A stretch of 64,000 bases of DNA, taken from Paludibacter sp. (GTDB taxonomy: Bacteria; Bacteroidota; Bacteroidia; Bacteroidales; Paludibacteraceae). The position numbers and the translations under genes were made by a program. The notes beneath the pieces were generated by a model. The model ran no database searches. It saw nothing but the letters and a program-made list of their open reading frames with translations, and was not told the DNA's origin. The stretch lies in NCBI GenBank assembly GCA_031292575.1, contig JARLGX010000002.1:62001-126000 (forward strand). Reading direction: 5' to 3'. Positions 30,911 to 45,618 of this stretch are shown here, one piece after another; position 1 is the stretch's first letter; each line of letters begins with the position of its first letter.

Positions 30911-31414
30911 ATGAGACAGTTACCTCCCTCTTCAAATCCTTCGTATGGCTTTACCAATTCTCCTTTCGGAGAATGCTGCATTGCGTTTTCAAATGATGGA
31001 ATTTGCGCGCTCACTTTTCCCGAAAGCAGAGAAAGTGCTTATGCAGACTTGGATCATCGATTCCCCGAAACTGATTTCAAACAAAACGACGATAAAGCAG
31101 CTCGTTTGGCAAAGCAGGTTTTTGATAAAGGAGAAAAACCAACCTTAAATCCTATTGGAACAGATTTTCAATTATCTGTTTGGCACGCTATGCAACGCAT
31201 ACCTGCCGGTCAAACCACCACTTATGCGCTAATTGCTGAAGCAATTGGGCGCCCTAAAGCTGTACGTGCCGTGGGAACTGCTATTGGTGCCAATCCAATT
31301 GCCTTTTTGATTCCATGTCATCGCGTTATACGTACTGATGGTGGTCTTGGAGGCTTCCGTTGGGGATTGGATTGCAAAAAACAGATGCTTGAATGGGAGA
31401 AAAGAAAGTTTTGA
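30911..31414 (+). CDS. ogt: Methylated-DNA--protein-cysteine S-methyltransferase
   Basis: The 167-residue suicide enzyme takes the methyl group from O6-methylguanine onto its own cysteine. The acceptor C136 is in IPCHRVIRTDGGLGGFRWG, with the helix-turn-helix region TTYALIAEAIGRPKAVRAVGTA before it. An N-terminal part of about 80 residues makes it an Ogt-type stand-alone protein. It lies just before a repeat-rich region that is otherwise devoid of genes. Confidence 0.94.
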   Translation: MRQLPPSSNPSYGFTNSPFGECCIAFSNDGICALTFPESRESAYADLDHRFPETDFKQNDDKAARLAKQVFDKGEKPTLNPIGTDFQLSVWHAMQRIPAGQTTTYALIAEAIGRPKAVRAVGTAIGANPIAFLIPCHRVIRTDGGLGGFRWGLDCKKQMLEWEKRKF

Positions 31415-31423
31415 GTAATGTTG

Positions 31424-31490
31424 AAGGTGTAAAGTGTAAAGTTTAAGGTGTAAAGTGAAAAGTGTAAGGTGTAACGTGTAATGTGTAATT
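31424..31490. repeat. Simple repeat of GTGTAA-type units
   Basis: Imperfect tandem units such as GTGTAAAGTG, GTTTAAGGTG, TAAAGTGAAAAGTG and GTGTAACGTGTAATGTG run for about 65 bp. Confidence 0.65.
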
Positions 31491-31564
31491 CAAAATTTGG
31501 AACTATGAATTAATTCGTTGTCTGTTTCACTGCTTTTTATACCCACAGCCAGTCAAAACTCACC

Positions 31565-31963
31565 AATATCCGGTTATTCCTTGTCCTTTCTATTCCGTTC
31601 TTTGTCACTTTTCTTCCATTCTTTACAAACATCCTTCCATTCTTTACAAACAAACACTAATTGTTGGAAAAGAATATACCATTCATGCCAAAGAATACGA
31701 TATTACTTGTCAGTTTTTATGTATTTACTATGGGAAATATAGCATTTCCTATGTATAATAACTTATTTCCTATTGATAAAATAATATTATACAATAGAAA
31801 TAGATTATTATTGATAAATAATACTATAAAAACCATGTAAAATAAAATATTTCCTGATAATAATAAAACATTTCTACGATATAATACGTTATTATAAATG
31901 GGAAATAGATTAATTCCTAAAGGAAATAGATTATTACCTATTGGAAATATATCTTTACAGGTA
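31565..31963. repeat. Degenerate 21-bp tandem array, about 19 units
   Basis: Cutting the sequence into 21-bp units from 31565 puts ATT (or GTT/AAT) at positions 12-14 in nearly every unit over 399 bp. The left third has TTCCATTCTTTACA-like units (for example 31607-31627 and 31628-31648, almost identical over their last 14 bases); the right part has GGAAATA…ATTTCCTAT-like units (31733-31753, 31901-31921, 31922-31942), each nearly palindromic. Because 21 is a multiple of three, open frames on both strands encode degenerate heptads such as FHSLQTS/FHSLQTN (plus) and FPIGNNL/FPLGINL (minus). It is contiguous without spacers, so not CRISPR. Confidence 0.82.
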
Positions 31964-32185
31964 AAGAAAAACATTTTCTTTTAAAGGAAGAAGACATTGT
32001 TTATTTAGATTGTCCTTTTCTTTCCAAACAATAGGATGATAGGTATATAAAACAGCATAATAGTTACATACACCGTCTGTTTGTATGGAACTAATGGAGC
32101 AAAACAGGCAAAGAATAAGCTGGAAATGATATAGAACAGAGAAAAATTATACTCTTAAGTTTAAATAGAAATCAAAAATAGCAAT

Positions 32186-32812
32186 ATGGAAACAGCAATT
32201 GTAAGTAAAACATTCTCCCCAAAGAAATACAAGGATCTGAATTTGCTTGGAAAGTCAAGGGTTGTATTGGAACAAATGACTAACAATGCTTATTTTCCCG
32301 ATATTCAGGCAAAACTGGATGAATTAAAGGTGAAAATTCAAAGTTATGAGACTTCTATCATTGATTCGAATCAGGGAGGCAGGTCTACAACACTTATTAA
32401 AGCCCAAAACAGGCGTGAACTGGAGAACTATCTGAAAGAATTGGCCGATTATGTACAACAAACAAGTAAGGGAGCAGAAAACATCATCTTTAGTGCCGGT
32501 TTTGATACCCATAAAAAACCAAGCAGGGTAGGAAGGCTCGACAGACCAACAAGAGTCATGCTAAAAATGGGATCCAATAAGGGTGCCGTATGGTTAAGTT
32601 GCGATGTGGTGGACCGTGCGCTCTTTTATGTGTTCGAATATTGCCTTGCTCCGCTGACGGCAGATAGTGTGTGGATACAACTTAGCGCTTCAAAGCGCAA
32701 AATTCTGATTGAAGGGCTTATAAGTGGGCAGGAATATTGCTTTCGTGTGGCAGCGGCTCGCACACATCCTTCCCGCAACTGGAGTGATCCGATAAAAAGT
32801 TATGTGATTTAG
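32186..32812 (+). CDS. Cytosolic FN3-domain protein of unknown function
   Basis: The 208-residue protein has no signal peptide. The first half is helical and charged (KYKDLNLLGKSRVVLEQM, KLDELKVKIQSYET, ELENYLKELADYVQQ); residues about 115-208 form a fibronectin type III domain with the typical tryptophan/tyrosine/leucine core (VWLSCDVV, YVFEYCLAPL, ILIEGLISGQEYCFRVAAAR, NWSDPI). It resembles a family of short Bacteroidota proteins often annotated only as FN3-domain protein. It lies immediately downstream of the 21-bp array. An FN3 domain without export is unusual in bacteria. Confidence 0.7.
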   Translation: METAIVSKTFSPKKYKDLNLLGKSRVVLEQMTNNAYFPDIQAKLDELKVKIQSYETSIIDSNQGGRSTTLIKAQNRRELENYLKELADYVQQTSKGAENIIFSAGFDTHKKPSRVGRLDRPTRVMLKMGSNKGAVWLSCDVVDRALFYVFEYCLAPLTADSVWIQLSASKRKILIEGLISGQEYCFRVAAARTHPSRNWSDPIKSYVI

Positions 32813-32936
32813 AAGTGATTGAAAAATTTTAGAAGATAAGCAATCCCGATTGAAATAAGAGTATTTGAATTCCTGGAAGGGTTTAATTTGAATAACCGTG
32901 GGTGAAGCTTAAGGATAAACAACGGATAATAAAACT

Positions 32937-32987
32937 AACCCCGAAGCGGGTTGAACCTCGAAGAATGTTATTCAACCACTTCGTGGC
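32937..32987. repeat. CCCGAAGCGGG/CCACTTCGTGG hairpin repeat
   Basis: The first hairpin is AACCCCGAAGCGGGTT (32937-32952). GGTTGAA (32950-32956) pairs with TTCAACC (32971-32977), and CCACTTCGTGG (32977-32987) forms a second hairpin. The compound structure resembles dispersed intergenic palindromes of Bacteroidota. Confidence 0.6.
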
Positions 32988-33080
32988 AAAAAATACAAGC
33001 AGTAGGTTTATTTTTTTTCAGACTGAGTATTTGAATTAAAGATATTTTGAAAAAACAGTTAATTATAAAAATATAATATG

Positions 33081-33088
33081 TATTTTTG
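33081..33088 (+). promoter_or_regulatory. -7 box upstream of the 164-residue membrane protein gene
   Basis: TATTTTTG fits the TAnnTTTG element, 28 bp before the ATG at 33116. No good -33 element is seen at the expected spacing. Confidence 0.4.
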
Positions 33089-33115
33089 TGGAGATAATTT
33101 TAAAAAGATATTTCT

Positions 33116-33610
33116 ATGGAGCGAAAACAACAAACTTCAAAAACTTATTTTAAACTGCTATCATTAATTAATTCAGCAGTCATTTCAGGTTATGTATTAG
33201 GTGTAATTGTAACAACAATTTTTTTTGTCGATTATAAAGGTCCATATGTTGTATCAAAATTTGATATGTCATTGATGCTTTTCATACCTATAACGACTTT
33301 ATTTGTTTTATATAGAAGTCATTACTTCTTTTATCTGAAAGTACCACTACTAAATAAAGTAGACGACATGAAAATTAAAATGTCCAAGTATAGAGAGTTA
33401 GTTATTGGCCGTATAGTTTACTTGAGCCTGCCTGCAGTTTTGTCAATATTAGCCGTTGCTAAAACAAATGCTTTTACTTATTTCTTTTATACAGGATTTA
33501 TAATTTATACAATGATTGTCAAAAAGCCGACATTGAAATCAGCTATTACAGACATGAAACTAAACAAACAAGAAATTGCTATTTTGGAAGATCCAGAATC
33601 ATTAATTTGA
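33116..33610 (+). CDS. Small integral membrane protein, function unknown
   Basis: The 164-residue protein has about four hydrophobic segments (about 14-36, 50-64, 95-110 and 115-130) and a short cytosolic-looking C-terminal tail (KKPTLKSAITDMKLNKQEIAILEDPESLI). I recognise no family. The SPFH protein gene follows after 68 bp on the same strand and may be co-transcribed. Confidence 0.65.
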   Translation: MERKQQTSKTYFKLLSLINSAVISGYVLGVIVTTIFFVDYKGPYVVSKFDMSLMLFIPITTLFVLYRSHYFFYLKVPLLNKVDDMKIKMSKYRELVIGRIVYLSLPAVLSILAVAKTNAFTYFFYTGFIIYTMIVKKPTLKSAITDMKLNKQEIAILEDPESLI

Positions 33611-33678: not shown

Positions 33679-34608
33679 ATGGCATCACTCCCTTTCATTC
33701 TCATTGGATTATTTGTTCTGCTATTCATTGCCTCCGGTTTCGTTACCGTTAATCAAGGCAATGTAGCTGTTATTACAGTGTTTGGTAAGTATCGGCGTAT
33801 CATGGCTCCGGGTCTTAACTTCAAAATTCCATTTATAGAAATGGTGTACAAACGTATTTCTATTCAAAACCGTTCGGCCGAGTTGGAATTTCAGGCTGTG
33901 TCGCAAGACCAGGCTAATGTGTATTTTAAAGCCATGTTGCTTTACGCGGTTTTTAATCAATCGGACGAAACAATTAAAAATGTGGCTTTTAAGTTTGTAG
34001 ACGAACGAAGCTTTATGCAAGCCTTGATTCGTACCATCGAAGGTACTATCCGTAGTTTTGTGGCTACTAAAAAACAAGCTGAAATTCTTGGACTTCGTAC
34101 CGAAATTATTATGGAAGTAAAAAAACATTTGGATGATACATTGGCCGAATGGGGTTATCATATGATTGACATCCAGTTGAATGATATTACGTTTGACGAA
34201 GAAATTATCAAATCCATGTCGCGTGTGGTGGCATCGAACAACTTAAAGGCTGCTGCCGAAAATGAAGGACAAGCATTATTAATTACCCGTACCAAAGCTG
34301 CCGAAGCCGAAGGAAATGCAATTAAAATTTCTGCATTGGCCGAAAAAGAAGCTGCTCAACAACGTGGACAAGGTATTGCTTTGTTTCGCGAAGAAGTGGC
34401 CAAAGGGATGGCACAAGCAGCTAAAGAAATGACAGATGCAGATTTAGACTCTTCATTCTTACTTTTCTCTATGTGGACAGAAGCCATTAAACATTTTGGT
34501 GAAATGGGCAAAGGAAATGTTATTTTCCTCGATGCATCTACCGACGGAATGCAAAAAACAATGAACCAAATGATGGGCATGATGAAAATGAACGGAAAGC
34601 CTGAATAA
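33679..34608 (+). CDS. SPFH/band 7 (stomatin/QmcA-like) membrane protein
   Basis: This 309-residue protein has one N-terminal membrane anchor (LPFILIGLFVLLFIASGF), a band 7 domain (VNQGNVAVITVFGKYRRIMAPGLNFKIPFIE onward, about 25-205) and an alanine/glutamate-rich coiled region (AAENEGQALLITRTKAAEAEGNA…). The C-terminus is Met-rich (MNQMMGMMKMNGKP). Relatives form oligomeric rings in membrane microdomains and modulate proteases such as FtsH. No NfeD-like partner is adjacent. A strong terminator follows. Confidence 0.88.
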   Translation: MASLPFILIGLFVLLFIASGFVTVNQGNVAVITVFGKYRRIMAPGLNFKIPFIEMVYKRISIQNRSAELEFQAVSQDQANVYFKAMLLYAVFNQSDETIKNVAFKFVDERSFMQALIRTIEGTIRSFVATKKQAEILGLRTEIIMEVKKHLDDTLAEWGYHMIDIQLNDITFDEEIIKSMSRVVASNNLKAAAENEGQALLITRTKAAEAEGNAIKISALAEKEAAQQRGQGIALFREEVAKGMAQAAKEMTDADLDSSFLLFSMWTEAIKHFGEMGKGNVIFLDASTDGMQKTMNQMMGMMKMNGKPE

Positions 34609-45321: not shown

Positions 45322-45618
45322 ATGAAAAAACATTGGATTCTTTTACTTGCCACTACCTTGTTGATAGTTGGAGTAGTTTTAAATGCCATTTATGGTGGAC
45401 TTTTCAGTTCAGGTACACACAGTTTTAATTATTTTGCTGCCGGCGATTATGCCATGGGTGTTTTTGCTGCGGGTGAATTCTCAATTGGAATTTTCTCAGC
45501 AGGAATTTTCTCTGTCGGGATTTTTTCGATTGGAATTTTTAATGTAGGGCTTTATGCATTAGGATTTTTTCTGTTTGCGTGGAAGAAAAAATATCCAAAG
45601 TTAGGAGTAAATAACTAA
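45322..45618 (+). CDS. Small membrane protein with SxGIF five-residue repeats
   Basis: The 98-residue protein starts with a hydrophobic helix (HWILLLATTLLIVGVVLNAIYGG) and continues with about nine five-residue units of the form (A/S)xG(I/V)F between residues 39 and 84 (AAGDY, AMGVF, AAGEF, SIGIF, SAGIF, SVGIF, SIGIF, NVGLY, ALGFF). It ends in a basic tail (KKKYPKL). Similar hydrophobic pentapeptide-like proteins are known from other genomes without a function. The preceding gene encodes a LytTR regulator on the same strand. Confidence 0.72.
   Translation: MKKHWILLLATTLLIVGVVLNAIYGGLFSSGTHSFNYFAAGDYAMGVFAAGEFSIGIFSAGIFSVGIFSIGIFNVGLYALGFFLFAWKKKYPKLGVNN

Follow-up and report, generated by a model that had tools for sequence, protein, structure and literature searches.

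A 590-bp array of 21-bp units precedes an FN3-family gene

Why does a stretch of 21-bp tandem units lie ahead of a gene of no annotated family in a Paludibacter genome, and is it a gene, an RNA, a row of protein-binding sites, or simply a satellite? The locus lies in the window, by which we mean the whole stretch of 64,000 nucleotides analyzed here (contig JARLGX010000002.1, positions 62,001–126,000), where a sequence-only reading had described about 19 units at 31565–31963. Autocorrelation bears out the 21-bp tandem periodicity claimed there: lag-21 self-identity in that interval is 0.55, whereas dinucleotide shuffles average 0.316 (sd 0.022, z 10.5) and none of 1000 reaches the observed value. 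Identity at lags 42 and 63 is also high (0/1000 shuffles), lag 7 stands at 0.344 vs. 0.316, a value reached by 102 of 1000 shuffles, and lag 14 gives no comparable signal (51/1000). The extent had been set too narrowly: the lag-21 maximal-scoring segment is longer, running over about 28 units of three types from 31413 to 32002, and lag-21 identity remains 0.544 over 31415–31990 (0/1000 shuffles). At the threshold used, this is the only array in the 64-kb window whose period is a multiple of 21 bp (hereafter 21n).

Both consensus types that had been distinguished are present, and a heptad block makes a third. This block, of GTGTAAA type (AAGGTGTAAAGTGTAAAGTGT, 3 x 7 bp; TRF periods 7 and 21), starts the periodic stretch at 31424–31488, and period 7 in the window array is limited to it. 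Unit type 1, CTTCCATTCTTTACAAACATC (the CTTCCATTCTTTACA-type block), occupies about 31576–31660 (TRF rows 31576–31624 and 31613–31652). Unit type 2, near-palindromic GGAAATA..TATTTCC, is placed by its sequence and its lag-21 identity at about 31715–31965, and the region 31720–31980 has a lag-21 identity of 0.554 (0/1000 shuffles). Also as previously noted, ATT recurs at unit positions 12–14, in 15 of 19 units in the phase of that reading, while the best column in 2000 shuffles reached at most 7. The near-palindromic character extends to the profile of the whole array, which has a dyad symmetry z of 3.23 (0/500 column permutations). Outside the heptad block the array has no match in its own genome at E below 0.003 except itself, a plasmid DNA search with it returned no match, and an inverted repeat flanking it was looked for and not found.

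The array begins at the end of a gene for O6-methylguanine-DNA methyltransferase (30911–31414, plus strand; Pfam PF01035, 4e-34). A spacer of 183 bp (32003–32185), which holds no TAnnTTTG on the sense strand, separates it from the start codon of a 208-aa gene (32186–32812, plus strand), whose product combines N-terminal helices with a C-terminal fibronectin type III (FN3) fold, as judged from AlphaFold2 and Foldseek. Farther downstream follow a gene for a 164-aa protein, hydrophobic as read from its translation (33116–33610, plus strand), and a conserved SPFH/Band 7 gene (33679–34608, plus strand; PF01145, 8.8e-32). The 208-aa model has a mean pLDDT of 89.2 and a pTM of 0.52; the matches listed by Foldseek against the PDB are FN3-type domains (E about 1e-5), and PDB sequence matches are titin-type FN3 or weak. 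The sequence gave nothing above cut-off in Pfam; Pfam, NCBIfam, PHROGs, and PADLOC together yielded no convincing family, and viral contigs, plasmids, and phages held no relative at E<=1e-3. Matches of the model in a viral fold library were set aside, as they look like generic FN3 domains.

The window site in related genomes

Five relatives (G031, G023, G027, G048, and G030) have neither the array nor the FN3 gene at the window site. With the methyltransferase gene as left anchor, the empty site is tightest in G031, where the 164-aa gene, its right anchor, begins within about 20 bp; in the other four the SPFH gene follows the methyltransferase gene after about 55–290 bp, the 164-aa gene being missing too. 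The site may be an insertion hotspot, at which array and FN3 gene probably arrive or leave jointly, within boundaries that are not base-exact. At the equivalent of window 31414–33116 in another genome (L079, G005:C77, 1996–4478), a PtuA/PtuB (Septu-like) defense pair is found instead.

Arrays are paired with FN3-family genes in distant Bacteroidota

A translated search with an 85-aa open frame lying within the array (31717–31974, minus strand) gave matches in three other genomes of the genus (G021, G024, and G031). The G031 match (E 0.006) is not an array, but those in G021 and G024 are arrays upstream of homologues of the 208-aa gene, and FN3-family homologues were therefore gathered. There are six in the window's own genome, matches in 13 of the 60 genomes searched (own included), and 23 loci in named genomes, which comprise Paludibacter, Mangrovibacterium, Bacteroidales, Chitinophagaceae, Flavobacteriales, and unclassified records, many of them MAGs. 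Scanning covered 49 FN3 loci at lags 8–130 with 21 not favored; L101 and L104–L108, judged duplicates, and two FN3 fragments at G049:C5 (seen again in L300) were left out.

Of the 49 loci, 42 have a best lag that is an exact multiple of 21, and five more miss such a multiple by one base (62, 85, 43, 41, and 22). A strong 21-bp array accompanies the cassette in the culturable, non-pathogenic relative Mangrovibacterium marinum DSM 28823 (L111). The lag of 22 belongs to L045, which scores 7 and has no array; the deviating array periods are thus 62, 85, 43, and 41, none a multiple of 3. A 21n array, defined by a score of at least 18 at 21, 42, 63, or 84 within 900 bp upstream, is present at 41 of 49 FN3 loci, compared with 7 of 563 genes under the same rule in control stretches of FN3-positive genomes; the FN3 loci are related by descent, so that these counts are not independent. 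Eight loci fall under the threshold, two narrowly, and L053/L301 is among them. At this last locus (G049:C14) the FN3 and LuxR-like genes are kept with no clear array, only a weak 43-bp lag.

The array thresholds were set after first looks; phylum-wide samples provide the cleaner test. In a sample of 395 genomes (from which 6 hits to the own genome and, in G330 and G365, 7 partial ones were left out) five of seven further, nearly full-length FN3 loci have an array scoring at least 18. The periods of these five arrays are 85, 84, 21, 42, and 21 bp, the last array being short (69 bp). In 275 kb of context around 20 FN3-family genes, an array lies upstream of each gene (18 with exact 21n periods, two with 62 and 85) and only one further 21n array occurs; these contexts were picked after the arrays had been seen and so test specificity, not frequency. 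The array and its downstream FN3-family gene are a pairing kept across distant Bacteroidota. The spacers between array and gene show no enrichment of the promoter motif TAnnTTTG (0.75 per kb on both strands), and a search for enriched words in them produced no convincing motif.

A second family carries its arrays downstream

Counting against a strict link to FN3-family genes, 20 stretches (400 kb) of the own genome hold five other 21n arrays, none adjoining such a gene, and noncoding arrays with a 21n best lag number 12 in 1.0 Mb of FN3-positive genomes vs. one in 0.6 Mb of FN3-negative sequence from few contigs. One of the own-genome arrays lies 3′ of a gene for a 158-aa helical protein (L142:3509–3985, minus strand), and the sole array of the FN3-negative set likewise lies 3′ of a member of this 158-aa family. 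Across the family, 32 of 44 loci have an array (score at least 15, lag 10–130) in the 700 bp that follow the stop codon, a count that leaves out L251 (duplicate), L274, L279, and L280 (partial), and places without a fetched locus. All but one of the 32 arrays have a period no more than 2 bases away from a multiple of 21; upstream of 158-aa genes only two loci score, at lags 10 and 104. By eye, six of nine spacers inspected hold a terminator-like hairpin between gene and array. The 158-aa model is all-helical (pLDDT 89.9), with no PDB fold match at E<=0.001 and no significant match in Pfam or NCBIfam, and profile comparison found the FN3 family homologous neither to this family nor to the 235-aa family described below. 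The side of the array is thus fixed per family over the phylum, upstream for FN3 and downstream for the 158-aa family. Arrays of this kind are tied to particular gene families, the main point here and one out of reach of the sequence-only reading.

A third family, of 235 aa (L134:5493–6200, plus strand), has 10 members in six genomes, each of which is also FN3-positive; two of the 10 loci show an array in the 700 bp ahead of the gene. Some of its members adjoin LuxR-type genes. A ParA-type ATPase gene (L134:3472–4568, minus strand; AAA_31, 2.7e-37) and a 115-aa gene are found 341 bp from the array of 63-bp period in L134. An array of 440 bp, built of 21-bp units (L122:5356–5796), occupies a 2.1-kb gap with no gene of at least 100 aa; three 42-bp arrays lie within 6 kb of L206 (G040:C186; 3013–3218, 5964–6156, and 8503–8694), each between co-oriented genes; and L175 and L181 (G024:C1) carry arrays with 41- and 44-bp periods adjoining other genes.

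Period and symmetry are conserved while unit sequence turns over

The unit sequence of the arrays is private to each locus and alike mainly among close relatives. Over 41 arrays, unit similarity correlates with FN3 protein identity (Mantel 0.27, 0/1000). Dyad symmetry is general: in the FN3 family it exceeds that of column permutations at p<0.05 in 32 of 41 arrays (p<0.01 in 26), and in the 158-aa family 23 of 30 arrays tested are more self-complementary than column permutations (p<0.05). What is conserved, then, is a 21n period, with a rare deviation of one base, together with the unit's two-fold symmetry, while the letters of the unit turn over. Noncoding DNA is usually recognized by conserved sequence; here it is the period, the symmetry, the side of the array, and the partner gene that persist. 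Since the array sequence is largely free, ordinary homology searches miss such arrays.

Divergent LuxR-like regulators and other explanations of the arrays

On the side of the array away from the FN3 gene, many FN3 loci have a divergently oriented gene of about 234–280 aa. Eight of these regulators were scanned; four pass the Pfam GerE (LuxR-type HTH) cut-off, two match below it, and two do not match (best E 4.8e-9). A model built from the eight matched none of 1113 control ORFs and nothing in the 64-kb window. In 60 genomes each of the 13 strong hits (E<=2.5e-40), eight of them members that built the model, adjoins a divergently oriented FN3-family gene, and in 12 cases the array separates the two. 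Eight weaker hits have neither an FN3-family neighbor nor a 21n array in the fetched flanks, one of them showing a weak 44-bp repeat and one adjoining the 235-aa family. This arrangement suggests a regulator-array-effector module. TPR-containing or AraC-type regulators are found near some other FN3 loci.

LuxR-type dimers bind palindromes of about 20 bp, and the units here, also palindromes of about that length, often lie beside a GerE-HTH gene, so the array could be a multi-site operator of the divergent LuxR-like regulator. The consistent placement of the regulator and its GerE matches speak for such an operator, as does a correlation of 0.34 (unpermuted, 12 loci) between unit similarity and the sensor part of the regulator. 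We nevertheless consider it unlikely. At the same 12 loci unit similarity follows FN3 identity (Mantel 0.41, 2/1000) rather than the LuxR HTH (Mantel 0.14, 159/1000, a comparison of low power), and L043 and L054 have similar units (r 0.88) at an HTH identity of 34%; the LuxR-like protein is therefore probably not what sets the unit sequence. In addition, an adjacent LuxR-like gene is found at 13 FN3 loci but not at the window locus, 45 flank loci of the 158-aa family, which has arrays of its own, gave no match to the regulator, and, unlike lux boxes, the units stand in 7–28 tandem copies. Passive origin, with minisatellites expanding in unconstrained spacers, palindromy arising by template switching, and the family link by co-inheritance, strikes us as rather improbable. 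It would account for the higher-order repeats of 42, 63, 84, and 105 bp, which show recent tandem duplication, and for the 21n arrays elsewhere in the genome; but a side fixed per family throughout the phylum is hard to obtain passively, few control genes have an array, and the 21n period is kept despite the turnover of sequence.

A transcribed array acting as a string of RNA hairpins is improbable as well, though here the evidence is mixed. Fold z-scores are strong on both strands of the 41 FN3-family arrays (mean -4.6 and -5.0), and the 158-aa family favors the sense strand in stability (23 of 33 loci, namely the 32 counted and one at score 14.95; p 0.02) and in predicted G-U pairs (0.116 vs. 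0.069, p 0.012). This sense bias accompanies a G-rich strand, however (GC skew +0.128), and terminator-like hairpins stand ahead of most of the 158-aa arrays inspected, while the FN3 family favors the antisense strand, which is stabler in 27 of 41 arrays (p 0.07) and richer in predicted G-U pairs (0.110 vs. 0.079, p 0.0497). Nor is there compensatory change within FN3-family arrays, the dyad register having a mean rank of 11.0 vs. 10 expected, with G-U at 0.88 and A-C at 0.93 of expectation and hence no G-U excess over A-C; Rfam gives no match near the window array. That the arrays are stretches of intrinsic curvature upstream of the gene, in phase with the helix because 21 bp makes two turns, is very improbable: the bend predicted from wedge angles for the 41 arrays exceeds that of full shuffles (mean 80 vs. 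62 degrees; 10 of 41 above 95% of shuffles), as for phased repeats, but not that of unit-shuffled arrays of the same period (80 vs. 85; 3 of 41 above 95%). Special curvature was accordingly rejected, the bend being no greater than the period alone gives. Least credible of all is a gene for a heptapeptide-repeat protein (21 bp being seven codons), whether living or, as the sequence-only reading had entertained, decayed. The heptads noted there on both strands do exist as short frames, the 85-aa frame on the minus strand and one of 74 aa on the plus strand (31518–31742), neither with a Pfam match, and open frames occur in slightly more of the 41 FN3-family arrays than a permutation null predicts (18 vs. 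13.0 on the plus strand, 23 vs. 15.8 on the minus strand), a slight excess that is the sole result favoring coding and is not fully explained. But divergence among units shows no periodicity by codon position (p<0.05 in 2 of 41 arrays, mean p 0.50), the full 590-bp window array has at least five stops in each of its six frames, and sister arrays have periods of 62 and 85 bp. With no codon period and stops in every frame, the window array is not a gene, and we judge both short frames to be nongenes.

Proposed mechanism

From the coupling, side, period, symmetry, and co-inheritance described above we infer protein binding, its cooperativity, and an effect on expression. Tentatively, and as somewhat short of probable, we propose that the array is noncoding and acts in cis, as a helically phased row of symmetric sites for protein binding, and that it is inherited as a single cassette together with the FN3-family gene downstream. 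Each unit would be a dyad-symmetric site for a protein dimer; with 21 bp making two turns of DNA, 7–28 dimers would line up on one face and could bind cooperatively. The resulting nucleoprotein filament beside the gene would set expression of the FN3 gene and, where a divergent LuxR-like gene is present, of that gene as well. The array would thereby control or mark its partner gene, in a design resembling that of iterons. On balance the data point to symmetric sites in double-stranded DNA two helical turns apart, and a protein-binding satellite, as the sequence-only reading suggested, is compatible with both helical period and dyad symmetry, the binding itself being putative. A variable tandem repeat, also offered by that reading, is a further candidate, the comparison having covered one genome per species.

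The identity of the binder, whether the FN3 protein, the LuxR-like protein, or another factor, is the least certain part of this proposal. Given that units vary with the FN3 protein and not with the LuxR HTH, the FN3 protein may read its own array, or an unlinked factor may do so; this co-variation may also be mere linkage. With pI values of 4.8–9.6, FN3-family proteins are not uniformly basic, and it is not self-evident that they would bind DNA. The chief problem for a purely promoter-side role is the 158-aa family: its arrays lie 3′ of the gene, behind a terminator-like hairpin in most of the spacers inspected, and fit such a filament poorly. A broader version, possible but doubtful, holds that these are private gene-satellite pairs, in which each protein, FN3 or 158-aa, recognizes a palindromic array of its own or is regulated by way of it. 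If so, selection would hold period and symmetry while the letters turn over with the protein, and the pairs would amount to chromosomal iteron analogs spread over the phylum, which two unrelated families place on opposite sides of their genes. Two unannotated protein families gain a testable partner here, with the array-poor locus L053/L301 and the empty sites (G031 and others) at hand.

Comparison with described repeat systems

Plasmid iterons and partition centromeres (Rep-iteron, ParR-parC) consist of tandem, helically phased sites of about 11–22 bp beside the gene of their binder, with a sequence private to each element and a conserved spacing. Arrays of the window type are likewise tandem, helix-phased (in the 42 of 49 loci noted above), gene-adjacent, and locus-private, with binding that is putative; they differ in that the FN3 protein matches no plasmid, phage, or viral contig at E<=1e-3. 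A partition-like system might have a ParA-type gene such as the one close to the array of L134, but this gene does not recur: among the context and flank ORFs of the three families (FN3, 158-aa, and 235-aa), 574 in all, a ParA query found no match. REP/BIME palindromes with RAYT genes are extragenic palindromes linked to a gene family, but the REPs of one genome are alike in sequence and not strictly periodic, and the partner here is an FN3-fold protein, not a transposase.

BrickBuilt of Porphyromonas gingivalis is described as a minisatellite of one 23-nt unit within a MITE with small inverted-repeat ends (PMC4596501); it shares with the present arrays the tandem arrangement, a comparable unit length, and a Bacteroidota host. 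The present arrays differ in being locus-specific, 21 bp in period, palindromic, and gene-bound, no inverted repeat was found flanking the window array, and the own-genome arrays differ from each other in unit rather than repeating one unit at several sites. TAACTGA and other heptamer direct repeats are described as intergenic, tandem, and present also in some Bacteroidetes (PMC4679880); they have period 7 and one sequence, whereas the window array has no lag-7 identity beyond its first block. BrickBuilt and the heptamer repeats are the nearest described items, and both differ in defining features. The open-licence literature searched, at the level of listings, held no description of gene-bound 21-bp palindromic arrays, and relative to that literature the pairing of gene and satellite appears new.

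Heptads of GTGTAAA type, as in window 31424–31488, also occur at other gene borders of the own genome (L002, L003, and L005) and are apparently a separate 7-bp repeat class. Elsewhere in the window, 45432–45570 holds a repeat with a 30-bp lag (TRF 15 bp).
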